Part shown: positions 3,959-62,534 of the stretch, one piece after another
Layout: each line of letters begins with the position of its first letter
Numbering within the stretch: the stretch's first letter is position 1
Program-made: the position numbers and the translations under genes
The notes under the pieces: generated by a model
Databases searched by the model: none
What the model was told of the DNA's origin: nothing
Seen by the model: the letters and a program-made list of their open reading frames with translations, nothing else
From: Planctomyces sp.
GTDB taxonomy: Bacteria; Planctomycetota; Planctomycetia; Planctomycetales; Planctomycetaceae
NCBI GenBank assembly: GCA_005778225.1
Contig: SXPC01000293.1
Span: forward strand, 1-64,000
Length of the DNA: 64,000 nucleotides
Direction: 5' to 3'

Positions 3959-3980
3959 GTTCACAAGCCAGCTGCAGAAT

Positions 3981-4083
3981 AGCCATCGAGGACACAGAGA
4001 TCACAGAGAGAATGAATAAGAAAGAGTTCTGAACAACTCCTTTTCATTTCTTATCTCTGAGCCCTCTGTGAACTCTGTGGCGA
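3981..4083. repeat. Second locus of the ACCACAGAGG-type inverted repeat pair
   Basis: AGCCATCGAGGACACAGAGATCACAGAGAG (3981..4010) and CCTCTGTGAACTCTGTGGCGA (4062..4082). Confidence 0.7.
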
Positions 4084-36745: not shown

Positions 36746-37984
36746 TTACTGATTGCAGGTCGAACAAGCAGGAGCAACGCCACAACCACCATCTGGACAG
36801 ACAGTGACAGGCACCATCTTGCAGACTTCGTAAGCAACTTGCTTAGGCACACACTTGGCAACCATGCGGGTGCAGGTCTGGGTTTCTTCGCGTGGAACCA
36901 TCTTGGCGACCTGATGAGTCACCGTGTATGGAACTTGCTTGGCGACGCAGTAGGGAACCGAACGAGTGCGGGTCTCGGTCACCATCTTGCAGGTCTGAAT
37001 CGGAATCTGTTGAACCTTCTCTTCACAGACCATTTTGCAGACGCGAACAGGAATCTGCTGAGTGACAGTCTCGTTCACATAGTTGCAGACACGGTAAGGA
37101 ATCTTCTGAGTCACTTGTTCCTGGACGACTTTGCAGACAGTCACAGGAATCTTCTGTACGACTCGTTCGGGAACATACTTGCAAACCTGAATCGGACAAA
37201 CCTGACGCACCACCTGTGGCTGGTAGCTGGTACAAGCAACTTGCTCGGTCACAACATTCGGACACCACACGCGTTTGCAAACAGTCCGACCTGGGCACTG
37301 CACCATGCAGACCTTAGGACAACCGGTACAAGGATCGATAGATCGCTGTGGAACCACTGGCCCTGGCAGGTAAACCTGCTGTGTTCCCCAGTGACCACAG
37401 TCGCGAGTGACTGGACGATAAGTCGTCACAGGTCGCATGACGGTATAGCAGCGTTCCTGATTGATCGTCTCGGTCACAGGTCGCATGACGGTGTAACAGC
37501 GTTCCTGCTCAATCGTCTCAGAGACCGTACGCGGCACGCAGTAATTGACTTCGCGGACATGATCCGTCCAGACAGGTCGTTGAACGACATGGGAACATTC
37601 GCGCGTCGTCGTTTCCCAGACAGGACGTTGAACCGTGTAACGCTGTTCCTGATAAGCGGTTTCGTAAACAGGTTTGCAGACCTGATACGTTTCTTCGCGA
37701 GAAGCAGTCTCGTAAACAGTCTTCATACACGTCTGTTCGACGTTCTCACACACGCGGTCATAAACCGTGCGGCAGGTCGTGTACTGCTGTGGTTCGTAGA
37801 CGGTTTCGTAGACAGTGCGATAACAGGTTTCACGCTCAACTTTACAGGTCGTGTAACACGACGACGGAGCGCACGCAGTGGTCGGGCAGCATTGATAGCT
37901 GGCACCGCCACAGTATCCAGCCTGGGCCGACTGCGCAGTCAGTCCAGAGGCCAGAAGGGCCAGTGCAAACATCAAACGGGACAT
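36746..37984 (-). CDS. Cys-rich repeat protein of planctomycete YTV type (cell-surface/cell-wall-like)
   Basis: Signal peptide then repeats such as TCYRTVYETVYEPQQYTTCRTVYDRVCE, QERCYTVMRPVTETINQERCYTVMRPVT and VTQKIPYRVCNYVNETVTQQIPVRVCKM. Confidence 0.85.
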   Translation of the reverse strand: MSRLMFALALLASGLTAQSAQAGYCGGASYQCCPTTACAPSSCYTTCKVERETCYRTVYETVYEPQQYTTCRTVYDRVCENVEQTCMKTVYETASREETYQVCKPVYETAYQEQRYTVQRPVWETTTRECSHVVQRPVWTDHVREVNYCVPRTVSETIEQERCYTVMRPVTETINQERCYTVMRPVTTYRPVTRDCGHWGTQQVYLPGPVVPQRSIDPCTGCPKVCMVQCPGRTVCKRVWCPNVVTEQVACTSYQPQVVRQVCPIQVCKYVPERVVQKIPVTVCKVVQEQVTQKIPYRVCNYVNETVTQQIPVRVCKMVCEEKVQQIPIQTCKMVTETRTRSVPYCVAKQVPYTVTHQVAKMVPREETQTCTRMVAKCVPKQVAYEVCKMVPVTVCPDGGCGVAPACSTCNQ

Positions 37985-40729: not shown

Positions 40730-43700
40730 ATGATGAACCTGTTTTCGACCACCTTAAAACGCCCTGCCAGACACACCAGCCTGGACGAGGAATCGGCTGC
40801 GGAAGTTCTTCTCTCGAAAGACGTTCCGACCATTCCTCCTCCCACCGACCGCGAACTGTTGACGCTCTGGCTGGAACACAAAGACACCTCCGCGCTGGAA
40901 GCCATTATCAGACGCCACGGACCACTCGTCCGTTCGCTGTCATCGCGTCTGTTGCGTTCGCATCACGAACAAGCCGACGCCTTCCAGACCGTCTTTCTGG
41001 TTGTCTCTCAAAACGCGTCCCGCATTCGCCATCGCGAATCACTCGCCAGTTGGATCTACGGCGTCACAGTGAGGACCTGCCTCATGTTTTCCCGCCAACG
41101 CATCTATGATCCGATCCCCGAGGAAACCGAAGCCCCCTCGTTCCCGCGCCAGGAAGTCCTCGAACACCAGGAACTCGTCCTCACCCTCAACAAAGAACTC
41201 GACCTGCTTCCCTCCCACCTGCGCGAATCACTGGTCCTCGTCTACCTCGAAGGCTATTCCCGACAAGCCGCTGCCGACTTGACGAACACCACCGAACAAA
41301 CCATCAAGTCCCGCTTAGCCCGCGGCCGAAACTTGCTCCGCACCCGCCTGCTGAAACGAGGCGTCACCTTCAGCACCGCCTTCACTCTCTTCAGCGTCAC
41401 AACCACAGCCGACGCAGACCCCCTGACCATCCCCGACCTGCTCCTCAACAAAACCCTCGACACCTGCCAAACCGGCCAACTCCCGTTAACCTTCCCCTCA
41501 GTCCCCCTCGACCCCATTGCCATCGTCCCAACCGGAGTCCCGCTCATGTCCTCAACCACTTTCTACGGCACCCTCGCCGTCGCCACTTTGCTGCTGCTCA
41601 CGACCCTGGGAATGGGAAACCGCGGGAAGGCGGATGGCCAGCAAGCAGTCACTTCAGCGATCGATACCTCGATCAATGAATCAATTCCCGAGATCGTCGA
41701 AATCATCCCTAGCGTGGCCCTCGAACAGCAGTCCGCAACAACGACTCCAGCACCAGCAACTCCTGCAGCCGAGCCCGTCCAACAGACTTCTTTGACGGAG
41801 AAACAGACCCACGATAATCCTCCTTCTTCGTCTCCTGTCAACACCATGGAGTTATCGCTCCTGGATCGCGAAATCGAGCTCTTCAAAGCGGCTGAGAAAG
41901 GGTACCGCGACACGATTAAGAAATTTGAATCGATGTCGATGGATCAGCTCATTGAGTTCTACAAAGACAAGGGGGTAGAGCCAGAGCAAGGACGCAAATC
42001 CTATCTCGATTTCTCGAATCACCGATTAGCACTCTGTACTGATCATCTCGCAGACCTGGAAGACCGCCGTCAAAAATTAATCGACGCTTCAAAGAACTAT
42101 TCTGCTGTCGCAATTGATCTTATTGCCGAGGAAGCAAAACTGCGCCTGCAACTCGATGCGGCGTTGGCCGAATATGAACAACTATTAGACCGTCGCTTGC
42201 GGATCGTTGGATACCACGTTCTAAAGAAGGACATTCTTGGAAATCTTCCTGGCGAACATCTTGTCCCGCACATTGACGAGAAAACGGCCGAACTGAAAAT
42301 CGAGATGCCTGAGTTGCAGGCCAAAATCATCGACTTGACCCAACGACACGCCCAAGTCAAAGCCAAACTCAACGCCCCCGTAGGGTCCGCTGTGCGGACC
42401 GTCGGACCACCCACGACTCCCATTGCTCCGCCCGCCGTCGCCGACGTCGATCTCTCCCCCAATCCCATCAATCTCCAACCCGCTCCCAACTTGCCACCCC
42501 TCAAGCAACACGAACAGTCTCTCCTCGACCTGAAAGTCGAACGAGCTGAACTCAACGAGAAGTACGCTCGTGAACTCGCCGAATCCGAAGTCACCCTTGA
42601 GGAACGCAATGTCGTTCAACTCAAGTTCCTCGATGCCAAGATCGCGCTGCAGGAAGCATTGCTGGAGCGTGAACGGTTTGGGGTGGAGCAGGTAGCGGAG
42701 TTACCGTTGAAGAGCGGGATTCAAAGTGAGTTGAGCGAGACTGGAGAAGATCAAACCAAGGAGTCACTCTCTCACACCGATACCCTGATCATGGATCTGC
42801 GTCGCGTTCAAGAGAACTATAAACATCTTGCAAAAGAGGAAGCACACAAACCGTATCCTGATAATGCTAATGCTGGCACCTTTAAAGGGATGGCAGAAAT
42901 CTACGAAAAGAAGATCCAAAAGCTGATCACAGAACAAATTCATAAAGACGATTTGCCTTTAGCAGAGCTAGAACCTTGTCGGATAAGTTTTGCGTCGACG
43001 TTTCGTGGTTGCCGTATGAACTATCTTGATGCAAATGGATTGAAACGTAGCATCATTTTTGATCAGGGAGGCTCGTACACACCACTTCGACTGGGAGTTG
43101 GTCGTCATCAAATCGAGCTGATTTTTGATGAGCAACAGTTTTGGCCTTCCGAGCCTCAACGGTTTCCTGGAACTTTGGAGTTATTTGATTTAGGTACAGA
43201 GGACTCGAAATATCGATACTGCGTATTCGATGCTGAACTTACGAAGAAGCTAATTGAGGGCGAGATCGCAACTGCCACGATGTTTTTCTGGGTGTCTCAA
43301 GATTCTCAGAATACTGAAAACAAATTTAACGTCAGCGTCTGCGAAGCGTTGTCTCCAGGGCAGTCCGAAGAAGATGTTCTGAAGGAAATCGAGTCACAAA
43401 ATGGCAAACTCCTTGCCGTTCTGCGTCTCAATGAGCGCTTGAACAAACTCAACCCACCTCGTGATTTTGGGAATAAGGAATTGCAGAGTGAGCAGGCAGA
43501 GAACTCGACACCGGCGCCTGCACCAAAGACTCCAGAAACGCCGTCCTCAACAGACAAATCCGTTTCAGAAACCCCTCCAGTCGATCTAGCCAAACAAGCA
43601 GAATTTGCCCAGCTCAAGACTCGTTATCGCCATCTCATCGAAGAATACCGTCAGCATCGGCTTGAACTGATAGAGGTTCAGCGCAACCAATTCTTTCCGA

Positions 43701-52233: not shown

Positions 52234-52329
52234 GTAGGGTCCGCTGTGCGGACCAAAAGTGAACGTTTTATTCGAGTAAAGGCCGACGAGATTCAGCGCT
52301 GGTTCAACGGTCCGCTCTGCGGACCCGAC
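52234..52329. repeat. REPIN-like inverted doublet of palindrome family A
   Basis: GTAGGGTCCGCTGTGCGGACC at 52234..52254 and GGTCCGCTCTGCGGACCCGAC at 52309..52329 in inverted orientation. Confidence 0.85.
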
Positions 52330-55543: not shown

Positions 55544-55574
55544 AAAAAGGGAGGCGACAAGCCTCCCTTTTTTT
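55544..55574 (+). terminator. Intrinsic terminator after apgM
   Basis: AAAAAGGGAGGCGACAAGCCTCCCTTTTTTT. Confidence 0.85.
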
Positions 55575-55582
55575 ACGTACAT

Positions 55583-55951
55583 CGGGAGGGCGAGGCTCCG
55601 TCCGAGCCGCTGTCCCGCGTTGCAACCTATCATCGACTTCTCGACGCCAATCTCACTCTCTTCCTCTGAGGCCTGAAGGGCCGTTATCTACCAGCCCAGG
55701 GTGAAACCCTGGGTATGTGATGCGAAAGAGAAGTTTCCGTCCTGAAAGGACGGCTCACGTAATACCCCGCGCTGACCCACCCCTGCAGGGTGGCGATGTT
55801 TGATCTGCCCGCTCACCCAGGGTTTCACCCTGGGCTGACAGAATCCGTCCCTACAGGACGGGAATCAAATGCACGGAAGCCTTCGTCGTCTACTTCACTG
55901 CTATAGTTTCGCAATGCAAAGGAGCGGCTCACACGGAGGTTCGCCCTCCCG
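55583..55951. repeat. Composite nested palindromic repeat element between convergent apgM and aldose epimerase genes
   Basis: Outer inverted arms GGGAGGGCGAGGCTCCGTCCGAGCCGCT / AGCGGCTCACACGGAGGTTCGCCCTCCC; inner exact 23-bp inverted pair CAGCCCAGGGTGAAACCCTGGGT (55692) / ACCCAGGGTTTCACCCTGGGCTG (55815); further palindromes at 55737, 55777 and 55845. Confidence 0.85.
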
Positions 55952-57094: not shown

Positions 57095-57272
57095 TTACCA
57101 CAGAGGACACCGAGGTCACGGGGAAGAGGTAAATCGACTAGTGTTTCATAGTAACGTATCGCACCATAGGCTCGCGAATAGCCTAAGGGCATTTTCGAAA
57201 AAGCAGAGAGGCAGATAAGCCATTGTCTGACTTTTCTACCTCTCTGTGAACTCTGTGTCCTCGGTGGCTAAG
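57095..57272. repeat. Inverted ACCACAGAGGACACAGAGG-type dispersed repeat pair
   Basis: TTACCACAGAGGACACCGAGGTCACG (57095..57120) and CCTCTCTGTGAACTCTGTGTCCTCGGTGGCTAAG (57239..57272) in inverted orientation. Confidence 0.75.
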
Positions 57273-60804: not shown

Positions 60805-62430
60805 ATGCTAACTCCCGAATCGACTCCGAACAACCACGCCGTCGAGCCGCCACGCAGCCTCGGGCGAATCCTGTTGCAGATGGGCCCCGGGCTCATCATC
60901 GCAGGCTCGATCGTTGGGTCGGGTGAACTCATCTCGACGACCAAAACCGGCGCCCAGTCCGGGGTCACCCTGCTGTGGCTCATTCTCTTCGGCTGCATCA
61001 TCAAAGTCTTCGCCCAGGTCGAGATCGGTCGACACACAATTCTGACCGGCCAATCCTCTCTCCGCGCACTCAACAGCGTCCCCGGTAAGATCGGGCCGAT
61101 CAACTTCATCCTCTGGACCTGGATCGCGATGATGCTCGTCAGCGTCGTCCAGCTTGGCGGGATCGTTGGAGGCGTCGGCCAGTCCCTCGCGATCGCCTGC
61201 CCGATCACCCGCGATTACGTCAACGCGATCGCGATCCCCAGCAAAGGGGAACTCAAACATTACATTAAGTACCGCAACGCCATCGACACCCAGCACGAAT
61301 CCTTCACCTCCCTGCCCGACGAAGAGCAGACACGCCTCCTACGAGGCATCGACCGCATCGAACAACAACTCTCGATCGCTGGCTCTCCCGGTGAGGAAGC
61401 CCTCAGACTCGTACGAGAAACTGGGGATTGGGCAGACCCTTATACCTATGACGATAAACTCTGGGCACTGATCATGGCCGTCCTGACATCCTATCTGCTT
61501 TACGTCGGATCCTACTCACTGCTGCAGAACCTTACGACCGCCTTCGTCTTCACCTTCACACTCGTGACAATCGGCAACGTCGTCGCCTTACAATTCACCC
61601 CCAACTGGGCGGTCACCTCGACACAGGTTCTTGAAGGCCTCTCCTTCAAACTGCCGCCGAAGACGTCATCCTCCAATCCCCTCAGCACCGCGCTGGATGC
61701 TTTCGGCGTCATCGGCGTCGGAGCAGCAGAGCTGATTCAATACCCTTACTGGTGCTTAGAGAAAGGCTACGCCAAACACGTCGGCTACCGCGACAACAGC
61801 GAAGCCTGGGCGACCCGCGCGACCGGCTGGATCAAGATTATGATGCTCGATTCGTTTCTCTCGATGATCGTCTACACGATCGCGACCGTCGCATTCCTGA
61901 TCCTCGGCGCCTCTGTCTTGTACCCCGAAGGTCTCGACCCCGACGGCATGCGGATGGTGAGTACACTCGCAGCCGCGTATCGCCCCATCTTCGGCATCTA
62001 CGCCAGCTGGCTGTTCCTGCTGGGAGCATTCTGCGTCTTGTTCTCAACGTTTCTGGTCGCCAACGCTGGCCACGCCCATACCCTCGCTGACTTCTTCAGC
62101 ATGCTTGGCTGGCGAAAAGACACCAGCGAGGTCGCATCGAATCGAAACATCGCCACCTGGGGAGCAGTCTTGCCGATGCTCAACTTCGCGATGTACTGCA
62201 CCGGTGCCAATCCTGTCCGGGCGATCCTGCTCGCCGGCATGATGCAGGCCCTCCTGCTCCCGATGATCGGTATCGGCACGCTGATGTTCCGCTACTCCAA
62301 CAAAGACCCCCGCTTCAAACCCGCCCTCTGGTGGGACATCTGCCTGATCCTCTCCGTCCTCTCCTTCATCACGATTGCCAGCTGGACCCTCTACGAAAAA
62401 GGCCGCTACCTCCTAAGCCTGCTCGCGTAG
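60805..62430 (+). CDS. Nramp family divalent metal transporter
   Basis: GPGLIIAGSIVGSGELISTTKTGAQSG, multi-TM pattern; stop codon TAG lies inside a family A repeat. Confidence 0.87.
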   Translation: MLTPESTPNNHAVEPPRSLGRILLQMGPGLIIAGSIVGSGELISTTKTGAQSGVTLLWLILFGCIIKVFAQVEIGRHTILTGQSSLRALNSVPGKIGPINFILWTWIAMMLVSVVQLGGIVGGVGQSLAIACPITRDYVNAIAIPSKGELKHYIKYRNAIDTQHESFTSLPDEEQTRLLRGIDRIEQQLSIAGSPGEEALRLVRETGDWADPYTYDDKLWALIMAVLTSYLLYVGSYSLLQNLTTAFVFTFTLVTIGNVVALQFTPNWAVTSTQVLEGLSFKLPPKTSSSNPLSTALDAFGVIGVGAAELIQYPYWCLEKGYAKHVGYRDNSEAWATRATGWIKIMMLDSFLSMIVYTIATVAFLILGASVLYPEGLDPDGMRMVSTLAAAYRPIFGIYASWLFLLGAFCVLFSTFLVANAGHAHTLADFFSMLGWRKDTSEVASNRNIATWGAVLPMLNFAMYCTGANPVRAILLAGMMQALLLPMIGIGTLMFRYSNKDPRFKPALWWDICLILSVLSFITIASWTLYEKGRYLLSLLA

Positions 62431-62534
62431 GGTCCGCTGTGCGGACCGTAAATCGCGTGAGTGAAAAGTTTGGGAGTGAATGGGTGTTGGTTGACATTCC
62501 ATCCTCAATAGATGGTCCGCACAGCGGACCCTAC
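62427..62534. repeat. REPIN-like inverted doublet of palindrome family A
   Basis: GTAGGGTCCGCTGTGCGGACC (62427..62447) and exact reverse complement GGTCCGCACAGCGGACCCTAC (62514..62534). Confidence 0.9.

Follow-up and report, generated by a model that had tools for sequence, protein, structure and literature searches.

What kind of element fills the space between two convergent planctomycete genes, apgM on the forward strand and an aldose epimerase gene on the reverse strand, where a dense cluster of palindromes lies just past the apgM terminator? Within the window – the whole stretch of DNA analysed here, 64,000 nucleotides long – the cluster occupies positions 55583–55951 as a composite without an assigned strand, and the intrinsic terminator hairpin of apgM (AAAAAGGGAGGC-gacaa-GCCTCCCTTTTT, 55544–55572, forward strand) is outside it.

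Architecture of the composite

The initial annotation had described outer inverted arms enclosing five palindromes, the first and fourth of them belonging to an exact 23-bp inverted pair, in a region that no ORF explains, and each of these observations holds. The arms (55583–55611 and 55923–55951, 29 nt) are 86% complementary; the palindromes (55695–55713, 55737–55753, 55777–55793, 55816–55834 and 55845–55861) are perfect or near-perfect; the 23-bp pair (55692–55714 and 55815–55837) is exact and sits within a longer, 43-nt inverted pair (55672–55714 and 55815–55857, 84%); and an ORF check likewise left the element unexplained. Counting stems of at least 6 and loops of 3–7, the composite has five palindromes, whereas 2000 dinucleotide-preserving shuffles average 0.43, and its summed palindrome stem of 35 bp is longer than in any of these shuffles, which never went above 34. 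It is the densest region for such palindromes in the window and, folded as single-stranded DNA, reaches −93.6 compared with −57.3 ± 4.3 kcal/mol (z = −8.5). The cluster is real, and chance is excluded.

A sixth, previously overlooked hairpin makes the inner part (55670–55861, no strand assigned) mirror-symmetric, in the order h1-h2-h3 / h4-h5-h6. On the forward strand, the shorter terminal hairpin h1 (GGCCTGAAGGGCC, 55670–55682) has its mirror partner in the terminal hairpin h6 (CCGTCCCTACAGGACGG, 55845–55861), and h2 (CCCAGGGTGAAACCCTGGG, 55695–55713) has its reverse complement in h5 (CCCAGGGTTTCACCCTGGG, 55816–55834); between them stand h3 (CCGTCCTGAAAGGACGG, 55737–55753) and h4 (CCACCCCTGCAGGGTGG, 55777–55793).

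Two nested repeat families

The genome-wide search that had been suggested for this element was run on the genome of origin (5.1 Mb in 305 contigs, an 87% complete, Pirellulaceae-like draft). It showed the composite to be multi-copy: its 88 matches sort into two families, both dispersed, an outer one (family A) and an inner one (family B). In the window, the left arm of A (CGGGAGGGCGAGGCTCCGTCCGAGCCGCTGTCCCGCGTTGCAACC, 55583–55627, forward strand) is 90–100% conserved in dozens of copies, and the right arm, ending in TTTCGCAATGCAAAGGAGCGGCTCACACGGAGGTTCGCCCTCCCG, lies at 55906–55951 on the reverse strand. Solo copies of A are inverted doublets of ~160–185 bp with conserved 45-nt arms and a variable centre, and no obvious target duplication was seen in their flanks. 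The arm core GGGAGGGCGARGCTCC occurs exactly 66 times in the same genome and is patchy elsewhere in the phylum; further genera, an uncultured Pirellulaceae MAG among them, have related inverted doublets with other cores, and across several genera A-type doublets of 70–215 bp consist of a variable spacer between two short, conserved arms in inverted orientation. Family A is, by description, a REPIN-like doublet. A search for an autonomous partner, in the form of a transposase between A arms, found none, and the occurrence of A arms beside Y1 genes is anecdotal, being confined to one genome (G034), where a RAYT on contig C173 (L193/L217) has a family-A-type arm a few hundred base pairs upstream. 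No such arm was seen at 29 related RAYT loci, and only the G034 gene hints at a possible transposase for family A.

Family B is present in 36 regions of the genome of origin, many of them without A, and about ten of its left-type ends lie at most 110 nt from an A arm. Several A+B composites have a common junction (..TGATTTTCACATCTTCTTCTCAGG) that is absent from both solo A and solo B, which indicates that the composite has multiplied as a unit. One copy of B would have inserted mid-way in the outer palindrome, the resulting composite would later have multiplied itself, and the window copy would be one such composite, at a site that tolerates it, past a terminator and with convergent genes on either side. 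This copy is not recent, since the best other copies in the same genome are only 70–77% identical to it over their length. An empty-site comparison of the apgM–epimerase region in relatives matched the separate genes and yielded no alignment across the intergenic region.

The arrangement recurs, in that five of 25 gene-less B-like elements from two other genera lie within a different inverted repeat: in these second matryoshkas (L291, L292, L293 and L295 in G005, and L303 in G054) the outer arms GAAGTTGCGCACTT..AAGTGTGCAACTTC surround the inner pairs. Such nesting may reflect a target preference. The proposed matryoshka of repeat families has therefore kept its nesting, though not its three or more families, of which there are two. 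The inner palindromes do not represent repeats in their own right: h1-h2-h3 make up the left end of a single transposable element and h4-h5-h6 its right end. The suggested resemblance to a BIME/REPIN cluster proved right in kind, as A is a REPIN-like doublet and B a REPIN-like derivative.

A transposase gene between the same hairpins

The genome of origin has two Y1-transposase genes, one for a TnpA (locus L031) and one for a RAYT (L032). The former, an intact gene for a 150-aa HUH/Y1 protein, sits exactly between h1-h2-h3 and h4-h5-h6 sets homologous to those of the window, with h3 directly before the tnpA start codon and h4 directly after the stop; because the gene lies between the same three-hairpin ends, B can be read as the gene-less version of this element. 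The protein scores 92 bits with Pfam PF01797 and 72 bits with the NCBIfam IS200/IS605 model NF033573 (cut-off 55); at 23.2 bits with the RAYT model (NF047646, REP_Tyr_transpos; cut-off 80), it is not a RAYT. It carries the motifs DHVH, WQ and YIQRQQEHH, the tyrosine being Y115, and is related to the PDB chains 2fyx and 2xm3. The signature of TnpA-Y1 subclass 1.2 (Y---Q--HH, as defined in PMC6006769) was found in 41 of 46 extracted TnpA-locus records, a set that includes a few repeats of one gene. No tnpB was found beside the L031 gene, which is single-copy in the 87% complete draft, and several near-identical intact insertion sequence (IS) copies were not seen there.

The inner 192 bp of the composite are thus very probably a gene-less copy of [h1-h2-h3]-tnpA-[h4-h5-h6], a derivative of a subclass 1.2 element whose copies TnpA would move in trans. 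Such movement would account for the presence of one or few genes alongside dozens of gene-less pairs. No target duplication, exact target site or transposition event was found for B.

The gene is common among relatives, occurring in 29 of 61 genomes (58 genera, one Planctomycetes family). TnpA relatives were not found in viral contigs, and a search of phages gave one distant match.

The ends of B and the Acido-Lenti-1 family

Both ends of the window's B element match the Rfam family RF01687, a 46-nt module of two hairpins with a gathering threshold of 37 bits: the left end (55669–55713, reverse strand) at 39.5 bits and the right end (55816–55860, forward strand) at 37.0 bits, each pointing outwards. 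This family, Acido-Lenti-1 (Weinberg et al. 2010, PMC2864571), is filed as an sRNA with no assigned function from Acidobacteria and Lentisphaerae.

The same module flanks TnpA on both sides, facing outwards, at seven loci (L031, L106, L110, L111, L113, L115 and L122) and on one side at others, with some of the matches at TnpA loci scoring under gathering; at several loci the first hairpin has a long loop that the Rfam model leaves unscored. No RF01687 match was found at 20 RAYT loci (64 kb scanned). Across the family, 32 of 61 genomes contain RF01687, whose copies have diverged and number dozens per genome; its distribution follows that of TnpA: 27 genomes have both, 27 neither, two TnpA only and five RF01687 only (Fisher p = 3.8e-10, with genomes taken as independent and phylogeny ignored). 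The five with RF01687 only (G004, G009, G048, G058 and G063) have a few matches each, and two of them are less than 90% complete; as for the two with TnpA only, the TnpA match in G027 is distant (28% identity), and G066 has a sub-threshold RF01687 match at its locus (L120, 30 bits). Close pairs among the best 150 RF01687 matches are divergent in 29 of 29 cases, 27 being spaced at 133–196 bp without a gene and two at ~600 bp with tnpA between them.

A sequence-independent search for the end motif (hairpin, CT-N, linker, hairpin, with perfect stems required) points the same way. The strict motif was present at 30 of 36 TnpA loci, on both sides at 17 of them, compared with 2/1440 shuffled flanks, 2/50 RAYT flanks and 0/84 distal segments; the six loci without it owe this at least partly to the perfect-stem requirement. 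An earlier proxy for B ends in the 61 genomes, the pattern GCCCAGGR..YCCTGGGC, was too rigid and was replaced by the RF01687 model.

The system extends beyond the phylum. The best plasmid match of TnpA, in Persicobacter sp. JZB09 (Bacteroidota), has the same 3+3 hairpins around one tnpA, and its left end matches RF01687 at 35.7 bits. About seven further gene-less copies with both ends lie on the same plasmid and one more on another, up to 97% identical per end. Six gene-less copies occupy one 13-kb stretch; several have flanks in common with the tnpA copy, so that multiplication was in part segmental duplication, and others have unrelated flanks. A Bernardetia plasmid (L288, 1290–1480) encodes a TnpA relative without a Y---Q--HH match; it was rejected as the same system, its upstream palindromes being of another type (several GTTGC-GCAAC) and RF01687 being absent.

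The best reading of Acido-Lenti-1, judged from sequence, is that it represents the paired DNA end-hairpins of a TnpA element, in this Planctomycetes family and in one Bacteroidota strain. More broadly, it is probably no gene for an RNA and would instead form the DNA ends of a widespread, unnamed subclass 1.2 Y1-transposase system with IS200-type proteins and REPIN-type behaviour, found in at least Planctomycetota and Bacteroidota, which may resemble a stage on the way from IS to REPIN.

DNA or RNA, and other explanations

A structured RNA is expected to pass through G-U intermediates and to show a strand bias of G-U over A-C. The covariation check that had also been suggested revealed strong covariation in the aligned ends, and the element is thus neither single-copy nor devoid of covariation. 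Among 50 distinct ends, 594 of 600 stem cells are Watson–Crick, with all four pair types, one G-T and one A-C – a figure slightly flattered by the second-hairpin register having been set per sequence – and a fixed-register count gives 12 of 13 pairs changed on both sides; none of 500 shuffles matched the covariation score. As both the G-U intermediates and the bias are absent, and the ends are arranged as mirror images, the hairpins of B appear to act as DNA, although gene conversion between palindrome arms could be an alternative source of the same stem perfection. A multi-hairpin RNA had been one of the original suggestions; the Rfam label would apply, but the evidence favours DNA ends.

Could Acido-Lenti-1 nevertheless be a genuine sRNA, the window holding two opposite RNA genes and the link to TnpA being secondary, for instance an RNA that regulates the transposase? 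Many terminal hairpins read CTTCG on one strand, a loop that is stable in RNA; both B ends score at or above gathering; and Weinberg et al. (2010) scored the motif as "probably RNA, not cis-regulatory" (PMC2864571). An RNA gene, however, would have no reason to occur in close pairs that are all outward-facing mirror images, nor would it be expected to let its stems vary so freely with so few G-T and A-C cells, or to occur in dozens of diverged copies per genome that so strongly accompany tnpA. The window element moreover lies past the apgM terminator, and a scan for a sigma-70-like promoter, itself weak evidence, found none. We regard the sRNA reading as decidedly unlikely. It is somewhat less so, yet still unlikely, that B is domesticated or dead DNA, now immobile and kept as a terminator or mRNA-end stabiliser. 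The site between convergent genes and the lack of a recent close copy would suit such a role, but the apgM terminator already precedes the element, compensatory changes keep the stems despite diverged sequence, and tnpA is intact. Highly improbable is a classical GTAG-tagged BIME/REP cluster mobilised by the genome's own RAYT: such a gene is present (L032; NF047646, 178 bits), as are true GTAG-type REP-like repeats in the window (at 42380, 52234, 62427 and 62514), yet that RAYT is flanked by other repeats (GTAGGGTGCGTC..GACGCACC), neither A nor B, no conserved GTAG stands at the hairpin foot in the 50 aligned B ends, and RAYT loci lack RF01687. A CRISPR-like array and a simple terminator were ruled out by structure and copy pattern.

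A proposed mechanism and its relation to known systems

If B is the gene-less form of the TnpA element, its multiplication can be pictured as follows. When the locus becomes single-stranded, during replication or repair, each end would fold into its hairpins; by analogy with IS608/ISDra2 and RAYT, single-stranded DNA would be the active form, and TnpA made from the single gene copy would bind the end hairpins in it. Its single tyrosine would cleave, and the segment, with or without the gene, would be circularised and re-inserted in trans, so that end-to-end gene-less copies accumulate as in RAYT/REPIN. That TnpA moves these copies is again suggested by analogy, as is a further role for the hairpins adjoining the tnpA start and stop, which may restrain tnpA expression as in IS200.

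The system shares with RAYT/REPIN (PMC3116915) a low-copy Y1 transposase, many dispersed and largely extragenic gene-less inverted hairpin doublets, and a transposase gene flanked by the same hairpins as the dispersed copies; it differs in that the transposase is IS200-like and of subclass 1.2, the GTAG foot is missing and each B end adds a third, inner hairpin to its two-hairpin module. With IS200/IS605 elements (IS200, IS608, ISDra2) it has in common a ~150-aa HUH/Y1 TnpA with DHVH, WQ and Y..Q and hairpins at both ends, but its two ends repeat a multi-hairpin module in true inverted orientation, a single gene copy accompanies many gene-less derivatives in the genome of origin, and L031 has no tnpB. 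Bertels & Rainey (2011) suggested an ancestral IS200-like element whose palindromic ends gave rise to REPINs (PMC3116915). Since an IS200-type TnpA coexists here with REPIN-like offspring, that origin becomes directly testable, and the element may be a link between ordinary IS200 and REP/REPIN repeats.

According to the description by Quentin et al. (2018), subclass 1.2 generally lacks terminal hairpins, has a low copy number and comes mostly from cyanobacteria or Bacteroidetes (PMC6006769). The proteins considered here resemble it in their Y---Q--HH signature, ~150-aa length, low copy number and occurrence in Bacteroidetes, and depart from the description in being common in one family of Planctomycetota and in having conserved hairpin ends. 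Hairpin ends at 30 of 36 loci amend the description of the subclass, not membership in it, and would supply the missing substrate for proteins portrayed as IS-like but lacking IS features; the literature searched held nothing that ties subclass 1.2 to hairpin ends. In TIRYTs and TIRtrons (Di Nocera et al. 2013), too, a tyrosine transposase lies between inverted repeats that are also dispersed gene-less, and some of these repeats are partly self-complementary; TIRYTs differ in carrying RAYT motifs, and the available text describes no link to RF01687 or subclass 1.2 (PMC3733652).

As for Acido-Lenti-1, the module is the same as in Rfam; unlike the family as filed, it would here be DNA at the end of a transposase element, facing outwards and in many cases paired with an inverted copy. 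A 2026 paper guessed that it regulates Tannerella proteases (PMC13298647), and no transposase link was found in the accessible portions of the literature searched. The present reading would supply a mechanism for an Rfam family that has been without one since 2010 and is still annotated as ncRNA, and RF01687 matches could be read as mobile-element ends instead of sRNA genes.

Other repeats in the window and genome

GTAG-tagged REP-like repeats (GTAGGGTCCGCTGTGCGGACC) occur in the window at 42380–42403, 52234–52255, 62427–62447 and 62514–62534, the last two forming an inverted REPIN-like doublet; this repeat family is separate from A and B. The classical RAYT of the same genome (L032, 1420–2004 on contig C140; 178 bits with NF047646) is flanked by GTAG-tagged GTAGGGTGCGTCAAGG..CCTTGACGCACCC repeats. 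The window also contains a 48-bp tandem duplication (37425–37520, 88% identical) and a 31-bp inverted repeat (3980–4010 and 57240–57270, GGACACAGAG.., 94%), another dispersed short repeat.
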